Source: Rubrobacter sp.
GTDB taxonomy: Bacteria > Actinomycetota > Rubrobacteria > Rubrobacterales > Rubrobacteraceae
Direction: 5' to 3'
NCBI GenBank assembly: GCA_019247245.1
Contig: JAFAPF010000519.1
Location: forward strand, 1-14,138
DNA: 14,138 nt
Program-made: the position numbers and the translations under genes
The notes under the pieces: generated by a model
Database searches by the model: none
Seen by the model: the letters and a program-made list of their open reading frames with translations, nothing else
What the model was told of the DNA's origin: nothing
Part shown: positions 5,060-13,611 of the stretch, one piece after another
How the letters are laid out: the number at the start of each line of letters is the position of its first letter
How positions within the stretch are numbered: position 1 is the first letter of the stretch

Positions 5060-6729
5060 TAAACCTCAACTATTAGCGGTAAGATGATCGGGCGCTTGCG
5101 CGTTCTCTCGGAGAGGAAACCCGAGAGATCCTCGCGAATAGCCTTCTTGAGTTCACCCCAGTCGGTGATACGCTGCTGGGCGGTGCGGTCCAGCGTCTTC
5201 GTAACTACGCTGATGGACTCGTCTACGAGGCCGTTCGAGGCCTGCGACTCGACGAAACCGCGCGAGATCACATCCGGCGTACCCAAAGGCACACCACTCT
5301 GGGCGTTGATCCGCGCGATGACAATAAACATCCCCTCCTCGGCAAGCTGCTGCCGCTCGCGCATGACACCAGAAGACATATCCGCCACGCCTCCGCCGTC
5401 CACAAGGAACATGCCCGCCGGGATGCGATCCAGCCGACGCGCCTCACCATCGGCCTCGAACCCGATCCGGTCACCGTTCTCTAAGACGAAGATGTTACCG
5501 TCCGGGATGCCCATGTCTATGGCCGTCTTAGCGTGAGCCTTCAAGTGCCTGAACTCGCCGTGTACGGGAACGAAAAACGTCGGCTTCAACAGCGATAGCA
5601 CAAGCTTCTGCTCCTCTTGCGCAGCATGCCCCGAAACATGTACCGCCCGTAAAGGAGTATAGAGCACCTCTGCACCCCGTTTCATGAGGTTGTCGATCGT
5701 ACGTGCTACTCCCCGCTCATTGCCTGGAATGGGGTGCGCCGAGATGACCACGACGTCGCCCCGACCGACTTCGATGGTACGATGCGTACCGTTGGCGACG
5801 CGGCTCAAGGCCGCCAGAGGCTCTCCTTGGGCGCCCGTAGTGAGGATCACGATGTCCCCGTCGGGGATTTGGTTTATGTCCCGCTGGTCCACGAGCATAG
5901 GAGCGGGGAGATCTAGGTAGCCGAGATCGCGTGCGATCTGAACATTACGGATCATGGAACGCCCGGTGACCCCTACCAAGCGCCCGTGCTTTTTGGCCGC
6001 TTCGACAACCTGGCTTATACGGTGAATATGAGATGCGAAGGAGGCGACGATGATACGGCCCTGCGTCGTCTCGAAAACCTCGTTGAAGGTCTCCCCTACA
6101 ATCTTCTCGCTGGGCACGTAGCCGGTCCGCTCCGCGTTGGTTGAGTCGCCGAAGTAGGCGAGCACGCCTTCTTCTCCCAGGGCCGCGTAGCGCGCCAAGT
6201 TCATCGGCTCACCTTCGATCGGGGTCAGGTCGATCTTGTAGTCGCCAGAGAAGATTACTATCCCCGCGTCGGTGTAAAGCGCTACAGCCACTGCGTCCGG
6301 GATGGAGTGGTTGACGTTTATGAACTCGGTGCGCGTACCGCCAATGTTTACGGTTTCGCCAGCCTTAACCTCTCGTAGACAATCAGCCCTCTTTATGCCG
6401 AGCTCGGCGAGCTTCGGACGCACGAGTTCAAGCGTGAGCCTCGTCCCGTAGACAGGAATATCGAACTCACGCAAGAGATACGGCAGGGCGCCAACATGGT
6501 CCTCGTGGCCATGAGTGAGGATGACGCCCAGGAGTTCGTTTTGGCGCTCTCTAAGGTAGGAGAAGTCGGGAAGGACGAGGTCTATCCCCGGCATCTCCTC
6601 ATCCGGGAAGGCTAGACCAGCATCTATCAGGACGATCCCGCTCTCCTGCTGCACCGCGGTCATATTCTTACCGATCTCTCCCAGCCCCCCCAGAGGAACG
6701 ACCTGCAGGGTCTTACTACCGTTTAACAG
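5059..6729 (-). CDS. rnj: Ribonuclease J (metallo-beta-lactamase / beta-CASP)
   Basis: RNase J is a zinc-dependent 5'-3' exo- and endoribonuclease of mRNA decay and rRNA maturation. From CTG 6729 the product has 556 residues, the usual family length. The conserved start VVPLGGLGEIGKNM is followed by IVLIDAGLAFP, the metal motif HGHEDH (73-78), a further His (about 141), SGDYKID (Asp about 163), the beta-CASP segment SFASHIHR (about 230-237), VSGHA (365-369) and HGEFRHL (390-396). The C-terminal domain ends LPLIVEV. Starting at ATG 6663 would lose GGLGEIGKN. No ATG, GTG or TTG occurs in any frame between the SD and that ATG, and an in-frame TAA bounds the frame upstream. The AAGGAGGT at 6738-6745 therefore points to CTG 6727-6729 (9 nt from GGAGG) or ACG 6730-6732. 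It probably acts with the PNPase encoded upstream in RNA turnover. Confidence 0.93.
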   Translation of the reverse strand: MLNGSKTLQVVPLGGLGEIGKNMTAVQQESGIVLIDAGLAFPDEEMPGIDLVLPDFSYLRERQNELLGVILTHGHEDHVGALPYLLREFDIPVYGTRLTLELVRPKLAELGIKRADCLREVKAGETVNIGGTRTEFINVNHSIPDAVAVALYTDAGIVIFSGDYKIDLTPIEGEPMNLARYAALGEEGVLAYFGDSTNAERTGYVPSEKIVGETFNEVFETTQGRIIVASFASHIHRISQVVEAAKKHGRLVGVTGRSMIRNVQIARDLGYLDLPAPMLVDQRDINQIPDGDIVILTTGAQGEPLAALSRVANGTHRTIEVGRGDVVVISAHPIPGNERGVARTIDNLMKRGAEVLYTPLRAVHVSGHAAQEEQKLVLSLLKPTFFVPVHGEFRHLKAHAKTAIDMGIPDGNIFVLENGDRIGFEADGEARRLDRIPAGMFLVDGGGVADMSSGVMRERQQLAEEGMFIVIARINAQSGVPLGTPDVISRGFVESQASNGLVDESISVVTKTLDRTAQQRITDWGELKKAIREDLSGFLSERTRKRPIILPLIVEV

Positions 6730-10525: not shown

Positions 10526-11419
10526 TCAAGCACCCTCCTCAAGGATAGCGCGAGCCTCTACAATGTCTCGCGCTATCTGCTCCTTGAGCTCATCGATCCC
10601 AGAGAACCGTTGTTCCGTACGTAATCGCTCGACGAAGGTGACGTCGACAACCCTTCCATATAGATCTCCCTGGTAACCTAACAAGTGCGCTTCGACCCTG
10701 CTGTCCCGCTGGTTAAAGGTGGGAGCCACACCGACATTCGTGCACGCTCCGTAACACTCAGCCTCTATCCATACGTGGCCCACATACACTCCCCGCTCGG
10801 GCACCAGAGAACACACCTCCGGTAACACGTTGGCGGTGGGAAAACCTATGGCGCGCCCTCGCTTGTCCCCCACCACGACCTTGCCGCGCAAGGAGTAAGG
10901 TCTACCCAAAAGTCTTGCAGCCTCGCACACCTCGCCACCGCCGATGAGAGCGCGTATCTTCGTCGAGCTGATGCTCTCACCTAAAAATGCACAGATAGGT
11001 ATAGCATAAGCCTCCCCTCCCATCTCCCGCATATACCGGCGTAAGTCCTCGACGGTCCCTGAAGCCTTATGACCGAACCGGAAGTTCTGACCGACAATCA
11101 CGACTGCGGCCCTGAGCTTCCCGACGAGCACTTCTCGCACAAACTCCTCAGGATTCTTCTTCGAGAGGTTCTTGTCGAATCGTATCACGCGCACCTCGTC
11201 TACCCCACACGCAAACAGTATCTCTTTACGTACTTCCAACGTAGTCAGTAGCTTAAGCTCACTGTCTGGCCTCAAAACTGCTTGCGGATGAGGGTCGAAA
11301 GTCGCCACAACTACCCGCAAACCTCTCTTGCACCCTTCGTCCATTGCACGCCGGATTACGACCTGATGCCCGAGGTGTACCCCGTCGAAGTTTCCCAACG
11401 CAACAACTACCCCGCGCAT
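10526..11419 (-). CDS. ribF: Bifunctional riboflavin kinase / FAD synthetase
   Basis: RibF phosphorylates riboflavin to FMN and adenylates FMN to FAD in the cytoplasm. The 297-residue product carries both modules. The nucleotidyltransferase half (about 1-170) has GNFDGVHLGHQ with HLGH (15-18), TFDPHP (40-45), GQNFRFGHKASG (110-121) and ISSTKIR (150-156). The kinase half (about 175-297) has GKVVVGDKRGRAIGFPTANV, with the PTAN motif at 194-197, the GVAPTF strand, and the catalytic Glu in VEAHLLGYQGDLYG (Glu243). ATG 11419 overlaps the end of truB by 13 nt, with GGAGG 7 nt upstream, so translation is probably coupled to truB. The truB-ribF-rpsO order is common in Gram-positive bacteria. Confidence 0.97.
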   Translation of the reverse strand: MRGVVVALGNFDGVHLGHQVVIRRAMDEGCKRGLRVVVATFDPHPQAVLRPDSELKLLTTLEVRKEILFACGVDEVRVIRFDKNLSKKNPEEFVREVLVGKLRAAVVIVGQNFRFGHKASGTVEDLRRYMREMGGEAYAIPICAFLGESISSTKIRALIGGGEVCEAARLLGRPYSLRGKVVVGDKRGRAIGFPTANVLPEVCSLVPERGVYVGHVWIEAECYGACTNVGVAPTFNQRDSRVEAHLLGYQGDLYGRVVDVTFVERLRTEQRFSGIDELKEQIARDIVEARAILEEGA

Positions 11420-12267
11420 AACACAACCTCCGGACGTGCAAGGGGCACGTCCTCGTCATCCCTGTAGATTGCCAGCAACTCACCCCCAGCCTCTACCCGG
11501 TAGCTACCTTCAATCCCGAAAGCACTCAATCTGCTCCCGTTGCATACCAAAGCGCGCTCTATAGGGGAAATGTTTACTGCCGGCAAGAACGTTACTACCT
11601 CCCTCTTTTGTATTATGTGCTTTTGTATCGTGTCGGAAGCGAATTGTTCGAAAGTCGAAGCATTTTCAAGCGTGAGGTGTCCAACGGAGGTACGACGCAG
11701 GGCGCTAAGATAGGCACCTGTGCCCAAAGACTCGGCCAGGTCAGCGACAAGGGCCCGTATGTAGGTACCGCTACTGCACATGACGGTAAAAGTTGCGGTT
11801 TTCTCGGTGGGATCTAGGGCTTCGAGGAGCAGGGAGTGAATCGTCACGATTCGGCTCTTGCGTTCGACGTTTTCTCCACGGCGATGCGCATTGTAAAGGC
11901 GAACCCCCCCCACCTTGACAGCGGAGGCCATTGGTGGGGTCTGCAAGACAGTACCCGTGAAGCGTCTGGCAGCACCTTGCAAAGCGCCCTCAGAAGGCAC
12001 TAAGGCATCTTTGAGGATTGTGATCTTTCCCTCTGCATCCAGGGTGTCGGAGACGGCACCAAAAGAGGCGGTAGCTGTATATGTCTTGTTTAGACCGGTT
12101 ACATAGCGGGAAAGGCGGGTGGCCTGGCCGATGAGGAGAACGAGTAGCCCTGAAGCTAAAGGATCCAGCGTGCCGGTATGCCCAATCTTGGTTCCATTCG
12201 GCAAAAGGTGCTTTACCCGGGCGACTGTCCGGGCACTGGTAAGGCCGGACGGCTTGTCCAAGAGCAA
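11407..12267 (-). CDS. truB: tRNA pseudouridine-55 synthase TruB
   Basis: TruB converts U55 of the tRNA T loop to pseudouridine. The 286-residue reading has the catalytic motif HTGTLDPLASG (Asp35), NKTYTATASFGAVSDTLDAEG, PPMASAVKVGGVRLY, CSSGTYIRALVADLAESLG and a C-terminal PUA-like segment. The start is uncertain. The family begins with a small-residue segment, G-x-L-L-L-D-K-P. Here codons upstream of TTG 12267 read SGALLLDKPSGLTS, so conserved residues lie before the first canonical start. No ATG, GTG or TTG occurs between the in-frame TAG (about 12343-12345) and TTG 12267. An ATA at 12292-12294, overlapping the nrnA stop and 6 nt after AGGGGG, is one candidate. TTG 12267 has no clear SD. 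The end overlaps ribF by 13 nt. Confidence 0.93.
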   Translation of the reverse strand: MLLDKPSGLTSARTVARVKHLLPNGTKIGHTGTLDPLASGLLVLLIGQATRLSRYVTGLNKTYTATASFGAVSDTLDAEGKITILKDALVPSEGALQGAARRFTGTVLQTPPMASAVKVGGVRLYNAHRRGENVERKSRIVTIHSLLLEALDPTEKTATFTVMCSSGTYIRALVADLAESLGTGAYLSALRRTSVGHLTLENASTFEQFASDTIQKHIIQKREVVTFLPAVNISPIERALVCNGSRLSAFGIEGSYRVEAGGELLAIYRDDEDVPLARPEVVLCAG

Positions 12268-12290: not shown

Positions 12291-13268
12291 TTATCCGATG
12301 CCCCCTACGATCTCGCCCAGGTCTATAACATCTTCTAGGACCCTAAGCAGCTCCTCTTTGGCGTCCGATGGTGCCGTAGAAGTGGTGTGTCCGCCTACTA
12401 GGGAGTATTGTCCACCGCCACCAAAAGTGTGCGCAATCGCACCAACGCCTACGATTCCTGAGCGCAAAGAAGCTTTGATGCCACCTTCATTGTCCCTCAG
12501 GGGGGCTACAACCTCGACGCAGGCCACGGTCCGAAGGTAGTCGATGACTTCCTCCGACTCGACTTCGGTGGCGCCAGTGTGCCTGTAGTCGGAGTTGTCT
12601 ACGATAGAGATTAAGGCTTTACCGTAGCGCTCGGTATTGGCTAGAGAGATACCAACAATGTTCAGTTGCTCGACGGTACCCGTGTGGTTAATCCGGTCGT
12701 CAACTTCAGCCGGGACCACATCCGCGCGAAGGAGCTCGGCGACCAGCTCGTGGGCTCCAGGGGAGACGGCACGACGGAAGCGGAAGCCACCGGTGTCCGT
12801 TCACACGCCAAAGTATATCGTCTCAGCTTCCTTTTTGTAAAAAGACACTCGGAGCCCATCATAGGTAGTGACTACTATCTGGGCACTCGCGGCAGGCCGA
12901 GCGTCGACGACGTTTATCTTCCCATAGAGTAGGTTATCCCCGTGGTGGTCGACGTTCAAGCACACCGGATTCGTTCCCTCCTCCGTAGCACCCCGATCCG
13001 GTCAGCCCGAGAGATAGCGACCATTAGTAGCGAGTAGCCCGACAGGCACTCCGACAAGGGTTCTTCAGGCAGGAGCCACCTCAAGTAGTTCGGTACCTCC
13101 TCGGCGTAACAGAACACAACTTTAAGACCCAAAAACGCAATAAGTACACCAGCCGACGGCGGAGCCGATGGCGTCTGTGTCAGCTCTGGTATGTATGGTT
13201 ACGGCGGCCAGGTCCGGCCTCCTAAAGAAATTCGCGATCTCGCGTATGGTGTTATTCGTCCACCGCAT
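12291..13268 (-). pseudogene. nrnA: Degenerate NrnA-like DHH/DHHA1 phosphoesterase
   Basis: Intact NrnA degrades very short RNAs and dephosphorylates pAp. Reading from ATG 13268, which overlaps the end of rbfA by 17 nt, the frame gives 38 or so family-like residues with DHH motif I DTDAIGS (codons 30-36). It then fails near 13151-13160. Family-like sequence continues in the +1 frame (FLGLKVVFCYAEEVPNYLRW, later SRADRIGVLRRRE) and returns to the first frame near 12973-12990 at GTNPVCLNVDHHGDN (DHH at codons 107-109). An in-frame TGA at 12801-12803 interrupts GV*TDTGGF. The rest is open to the TAA at 12291 and carries the DHHA1 domain, where GGGGH has become GGGGQ. A GTG at 12719 could at most start a 142-residue C-terminal fragment. 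The total span equals 326 codons, normal for the family. It sits between rbfA and truB, the family's usual neighbours. Decay or sequence error cannot be told apart here. Confidence 0.85.
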
Positions 13269-13611
13269 CTTCTCTCATCCCTTTAAGCTTCCTTAGAGCC
13301 GCCTCGACTCTACTCACGTTCTCAACGACTGGATCTTGCTCGAAACGGAGTCGTGGAGTGTGCTTAAGGCGTGTCTGCGCTGCAACTGCGGCTTGTATAC
13401 GTCCAGCAGAGCTCTGCAGACCCTCCCTGGCACCTTCGATATTCTCGCCGGAGAGCAAGCTGTAATAGATCGTAGCCTGCCTCAGATCTGGGCTCACGCG
13501 AACATTGGTAACCGTGACAAGGCCTTTAATGCGCGGGTCCGAAAGCGACGCGACCTCCTCGCCAACGATCTCCTTCAAACGGGACTCGACCTTGCGGATA
13601 CGTTCGCTCAA
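13252..13611 (-). CDS. rbfA: Ribosome-binding factor A
   Basis: RbfA is a small KH-like protein that binds free 30S subunits and assists late 16S rRNA maturation. The 119-residue product is the usual size and matches the family: SERIRKVESRLKEIVGEEVA, DPRIKGLVTVTNVRVSPDLRQA, IYYSLL, and the late TPRLRFEQDPVVENVSRVEAAL. The start is TTG 13611 with GGGAG 8 nt upstream, 13 nt after the DUF503 gene. The end overlaps the start of the nrnA remnant by 17 nt. The infB-DUF503-rbfA-nrnA-truB order is the classical ribosome-maturation cluster of Gram-positive bacteria. Confidence 0.96.
   Translation of the reverse strand: MSERIRKVESRLKEIVGEEVASLSDPRIKGLVTVTNVRVSPDLRQATIYYSLLSGENIEGAREGLQSSAGRIQAAVAAQTRLKHTPRLRFEQDPVVENVSRVEAALRKLKGMREDAVDE

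Follow-up and report, generated by a model that had tools for sequence, protein, structure and literature searches.

The window considered here, meaning the whole stretch of DNA that was analysed, is 14138 bases long and constitutes contig C531 of a 3.11-Mb bin (G000) of 548 contigs, with a completeness of 83.76% and a contamination of 3.28%. Read along its minus strand, the window carries what are presumably the end of infB followed by ylxP, rbfA, nrnA, truB, ribF, rpsO, pnp, pqqL, rnj, ftsK, rodZ, recA and recX, the open frames being named by resemblance. The order from infB to pnp is also found in loci of the same genus, as far as the fetched stretches reach. Both rbfA (13252 to 13611, minus strand) and truB (11407 to 12267, minus strand) are open, and they are the single full copies of these genes in the bin. 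Between them lies nrnA, a gene that normally serves to clear tiny RNA scraps. The loci fetched for gene order (L007-L035) cover 29 family genomes, and in every one of these rbfA, nrnA and truB lie next to each other on the same strand, with rbfA as the upstream and truB as the downstream neighbour of nrnA; eight other genomes with an nrnA match fall outside this count.

A previous, sequence-only reading of the window held that every gene other than nrnA is intact. This stands for the end of infB, ylxP, rbfA, truB, ribF, rpsO, pnp, pqqL and rnj, all nine of which align with their relatives in a single frame, and it applies more loosely to ftsK, which was compared with relatives in part, and to rodZ, recA and recX, which were judged as open frames alone. 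The start region of rnj (6664-6729, minus strand) contains no ATG, GTG or TTG between the upstream stop and the conserved N-terminus, and an AGGAGG-like site stands at good spacing ahead of a CTG, which is probably the start codon in the window. Among the eight relatives seen, the region resembles that of the window in G001 and in HOT (L069); G007 and G008 have the CTG plus an in-frame TTG further in, and near the place of the CTG there is a TTG in G002, G004 and G005 and an ATG in R. taiwanensis. The CTG start of rnj is likely conserved.

Irregularities of other kinds occur in this operon among relatives. In the same-genus genome G002 (L043, 3485-7672), the matches to pnp, ribF and truB are split over several frames and nrnA is whole, a pattern that suggests errors in the sequencing of that genome. 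In G001 (L039, 5179-5873), the truB match covers residues 1-45 and 99-284, and hardly any DNA separates its two parts, which could represent either an internal deletion or an assembly fault.

Lesions in the operon copy of nrnA

The nrnA sequence of the window is nearly full length (12291 to 13268, minus strand) and, as traced by three-frame translation and DNA alignment, runs from an ATG at 13266-13268 to a TAA at 12291-12293. The alignment that locates its lesions comprises the broken copy, a second copy from another contig of the bin (C215, described below) and nine relatives, namely eight of the nine same-genus genomes and G019. Relative to the intact relatives, three changes shift the reading frame (-1, -1 and +2). 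The first, at 13153-13154, is one base short, and the second, near 13135-13136, is likewise one base short; between them, the third frame reads LVYLL, matching the relatives. The third change, of two additional bases, lies at 12980-12988, its exact place being ambiguous, and restores the original frame. The first in-frame stop, a TAA at 13122-13124, comes after 48 codons.

Damage is also present elsewhere in the gene. An in-frame TGA at 12801-12803 interrupts the segment GV*TDTGGF; the other 30 sequences of the alignment, from C215 and 29 relatives, all lack a stop in that column. One 3-nt addition is found near 12774-12776, and another near 12402-12404, just after the codon (12408-12410) in which the histidine of the GGGH motif has become glutamine; together, the latter two changes span 12402-12410. 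The metal-binding aspartate of motif II is replaced by alanine at 13016-13018. All of these positions are on the minus strand, and the lesions are spread over about 750 nt. The window copy has no single open frame through the DHH and DHHA1 domains, and its remaining metal-site motifs (H, DxD, DHH and DTG) are still readable. In the B. subtilis enzyme, D80 coordinates metal 1 (PMC5593865, PMC9757072), H284 of GGGH touches the substrate (PMC5593865), and the D80N D156N mutant displays no detectable cleavage (PMC5593865, PMC9757072). Judging from motif order, the residues lost in the window copy would correspond to D80 and H284.

These results refine the sequence-only reading. Its departure from the family-like frame near 13155 is found again near 13154, its return near 12975 is placed at 12980-12988, and both the zero net change in length and the presence of TAA and TGA stops in the original frame across the shifted segment are borne out. 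The two compensating frameshifts that it described are instead three, the left-hand shift consisting of two -1 events, and the segment does run in an alternative frame, for about 150 nt rather than about 180 nt. The proposed confinement of the lesion to 12970-13165 does not hold, several of the additional changes (the TGA, the two 3-nt additions and the two losses of functional residues) lying outside that interval. The compensation among the frameshifts looks incidental.

A family search covering 39 genomes, the bin included, indicates how unusual such damage is. A single nrnA match was found in 37 of the 38 other genomes, none with an internal stop; G014, which is 77% complete, has no match, and the match in G025 spans residues 3-196 only. 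Among the 39, a broken nrnA copy and two nrnA loci are found in G000 alone. The genome search match to the window copy contains three TGA and one TAA codons internally, and among the 38 genomes with matches internal stops are restricted to this bin. Apart from the columns made by the broken copy, every gap in C215 and in the nine aligned relatives is a multiple of three. Because the gaps of the relatives keep to multiples of three and stops appear in one of 38 genomes, the lesions are not attributable to chance. In the relatives examined, the rbfA-truB interval, which the sequence-only reading had pointed to for comparison, holds nrnA without internal stops. That reading's suggestion of nrnA decay in a conserved operon is supported by the lesions and by the shared rbfA-nrnA-truB order, and the designation of the window copy as a decaying pseudogene is well supported by these comparisons. 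No match to orn, the alternative nanoRNase, was found in any of the 10 genus genomes, in a search for which three of 14 control genomes matched, two of them over the cut-off; thus, loss of nrnA without replacement would probably be costly.

The intact copy on contig C215

The meaning of the broken gene is altered by a second copy that is invisible from the window alone. Positions 79-1041 of contig C215 in the same bin contain an open nrnA frame of 320 aa, the product of which exceeds the curated Pfam cut-offs for both domains (DHH, 52.6 bits versus 28.1; DHHA1, 49.8 bits versus 25.9) and retains all of the motifs in readable form (HVGPDGDA, VVDTS, DHH, DTGGF and GGGGH). The protein matches solved NrnA-type structures by sequence (16 distinct sequences, best E 5.1e-31), and its named matches are mostly from Rubrobacteraceae/Rubrobacter metagenome genomes. 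The C215 copy is predicted to be active as NrnA.

Preceding this gene is a segment (C215, 1-80) that is colinear with the rbfA tails of relatives and one base short, and its rbfA frame continues beyond the nrnA start without the usual rbfA stop. The scrap scores 14.5 bits against a family rbfA profile (i-E 4e-4 in a set of 308 segments); none of 2000 shuffles reached 8 bits, and the single rbfA of the window used as query gives E 0.36, which is not significant alone. The missing base is less certain, since it is near the contig end where error is likelier. The most interesting feature of the two loci is their reciprocity: rbfA is kept and nrnA broken in the window, and the opposite appears to hold on C215, the rbfA half of this picture being drawn from about 80 bases at the contig end.

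Downstream of the intact nrnA are a large SRP RNA (C215, 1505-1770) and then dnaX (C215, 1848-3710), which is the sole full-length dnaX found in the bin. The approximately 460 bases between nrnA and the SRP RNA (L036, 1042-1500) hold no clear gene, and their minus strand carries an 82-residue open stretch resembling part of a protein. In eight relatives, the region upstream of dnaX varies in its contents, and inspection of the open frames by eye recognised nrnA in none of the eight, one of which had only 295 bases. The site upstream of the SRP RNA and dnaX may be susceptible to insertion. The only repeats around the C215 copy are short ones, and a search for a truB remnant beside it found none.

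Several features bear on whether the two contigs belong together. The GC content of C531 (0.571) and that of C215 (0.570) match, and all same-genus loci compared are higher (0.614-0.703). A dnaX tree places G000 outside the eight other genus members (96.6/92), and a tree of operon proteins places it outside the other genus members as well, weakly (22/47). These features tend to favour a single genome for C531 and C215, which would place both in one cell.

Relationships and substitution rates of the two copies

The closest protein relative of the C215 copy is P0003, from another metagenome, at 93% identity, and those of the broken copy are P0074 (73%), P0123 (72%) and P0095 (70%). A tree of 59 rows places the broken copy among P0069, P0095, P0074 and P0123 (92.8/94) and joins the C215 copy to P0003 (100/100), beside P0006 and P0008 (94.2/98). 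With a smaller set of 31 rows, the grouping of the two copies had not been rejected (AU 0.397). In constraint tests based on 42 of the 59 rows (LG+G4, with short searches of 60 iterations), the AU test rejects a group that unites the broken copy, C215 and P0003 (p = 0.002), and it also rejects the placement of C215 and P0003 inside the clade of the broken copy (0.014), which the SH test does not (0.094). A recent duplication within the lineage, which the 31-row data permitted, is thus rejected with the wider sampling. The position of the copies in different clades implies that two divergent lineages were brought together, most simply, it would seem, by transfer between related species.

The broken copy also has the longer branches. 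Its terminal branch in the 59-row tree measures 0.374, versus 0.041-0.086 for its nearest kin, and its branch length for second codon positions on a fixed topology is 0.279, versus 0.052 for C215. In a codon model of 11 taxa, with a topology fixed by hand and third positions saturated, the broken branch has an omega of 0.119, compared with 0.050 for the background and 0.037 for C215. Equality of the broken branch with the background is rejected weakly (2dlnL 4.4), and omega = 1 is rejected strongly (26.9). By halves, omega on the broken branch is 0.124 and 0.105; the comparison with the background gives a 2dlnL of 1.3 for the N-terminal half, and in the C-terminal half 0.105 stands against a background of 0.032, with omega = 1 also rejected (2dlnL 7.6). 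Because its close kin are known as proteins only, the broken branch includes a long constrained period, and a low omega is to be expected from the constrained time before decay. Late decay is therefore compatible with the codon-model rates and is not proven by them.

The 142-aa frame at the downstream end of the gene (12291-12719) was considered as a protein of its own under selection. It has no Pfam match, and the omega of the C-terminal half is read as a constrained history followed by decay and as proof neither way. Used as a query for an independent assembly of the broken gene, this frame matched itself and one 63% sequence only.

Origin of the broken copy

Taken together, these observations are best explained if the native nrnA decayed in its ancestral slot and was replaced by the C215 copy, acquired from a related lineage within the family (probability roughly 0.7). 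In the proposed course of events, a segment containing rbfA and nrnA would have arrived from that lineage, and the resulting redundancy would have permitted reciprocal decay, of rbfA in the incoming segment and of nrnA at the native locus. The outcome would be one working copy of each, the native rbfA and the incoming nrnA on C215, with the latter taking over the job of the window nrnA. More tentatively, and at somewhat less than even odds, it could be that two divergent rbfA-nrnA segments were sorted in this reciprocal manner, that nrnA thereby left an operon whose order is kept in all of the other family genomes examined, and that the dying copy persists at nearly full length since its deletion could disturb the co-expression of rbfA with truB, ribF, rpsO and pnp.

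The presence of nrnA copies from two clades would also follow if C215 were a contig of a related species misplaced in the bin, leaving the genome, as far as is known, with a broken nrnA only. The contamination and incompleteness of the bin and the occurrence of a 93% identical protein in another metagenome are in keeping with this explanation, which is nonetheless unlikely: an ordinary contaminant should show the rbfA-nrnA-truB order found in 29 of 29 relatives, and C215 has neither that order nor an intact rbfA end. Its GC content, moreover, equals that of C531 and lies under that of all same-genus loci compared, and it carries the bin's only full-length dnaX, which branches outside the eight other genus members as the operon proteins (weakly) do. 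Somewhat less likely still is an old duplication inside the lineage, with relatives losing one copy or the other and no transfer involved. Both clades do fall within the family near the genus, and the 31-row data do not reject a grouping, but repeated loss would be needed, given that 37 of the 38 other genomes are single-copy and that those examined have nrnA in the operon slot; a duplication of recent date is the version rejected by the constraint test. It is accordingly a weaker alternative to transfer.

Two further explanations deny that the gene has decayed, and both are very improbable. Assembly errors do create spurious pseudogenes, according to PMC11017572, and the splitting of pnp, ribF and truB in G002 looks like such error, so that the lesions might be consensus errors in a gene with one open frame. 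However, they are confined to nrnA, the nine compared neighbours being in single frames, and the losses of the motif II aspartate and GGGH histidine, like the long branch, reflect substitutions rather than indel noise. The artefact that the sequence-only reading had envisaged, one base extra and one missing, would account neither for the TGA nor for the substitutions, and the full set of lesions would not arise from one or two errors in the consensus. Slightly more improbable again is that programmed frameshifting and stop-codon reading maintain a full NrnA, or that 12291-12719 encodes a separate DHHA1-only protein. Past the TGA the frame stays open to its end and omega is below 1 in both halves, but recoding would have to bypass three shifts and the TGA to produce a protein whose catalytic aspartate is gone, and the 142-aa frame lacks the GGGH histidine as well as a Pfam match; the low omega would probably be seen in any case, from the constrained period before decay.

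The proposed displacement of the native nrnA by the C215 copy most likely represents ordinary gene replacement, a known process and not a new mechanism, and nothing in the knowledge of NrnA itself is altered. Its value is that it shows gene displacement while still under way, with the replacement, a remnant of the gene that once adjoined it and the decaying original all to be seen. It also indicates that compensating frameshifts in raw sequence are best compared with relatives and with the remainder of the genome before they are called error or novelty. Compared with bifunctional NrnA oligoribonuclease/pAp phosphatases (B. subtilis 5j21; Rv2837c 5jju; TM1595), the C215 protein matches by sequence and has both Pfam domains, whereas the window copy has lost its frame along with the GGGH histidine and the aspartate of motif II. 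The spurious pseudogenes of assembly error (PMC11017572) are similar in that shifts and an internal stop are seen in one metagenome-type assembly, but such error does not explain substitutions at functional residues or an intact second copy. The lesions, in which frameshifts are combined with nonsense and missense changes in a gene that is redundant, are like those of bacterial pseudogene decay (PMC2916853); unlike the young pseudogenes of Salmonella, which in that account are rapidly removed, the window nrnA is a nearly full-length remnant inside an operon. A further parallel is xenologous gene displacement, a term used in PMC1274311, in that an intact copy from another clade (by the 42-row AU test, a grouping of the copies not being rejected in the 31-row test) accompanies, in the same bin, an inactivated, decaying copy in the ancestral position. 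Here, both the losing copy and the apparent scrap of the incoming rbfA can still be seen, and the incoming nrnA is situated at a different locus rather than in situ.
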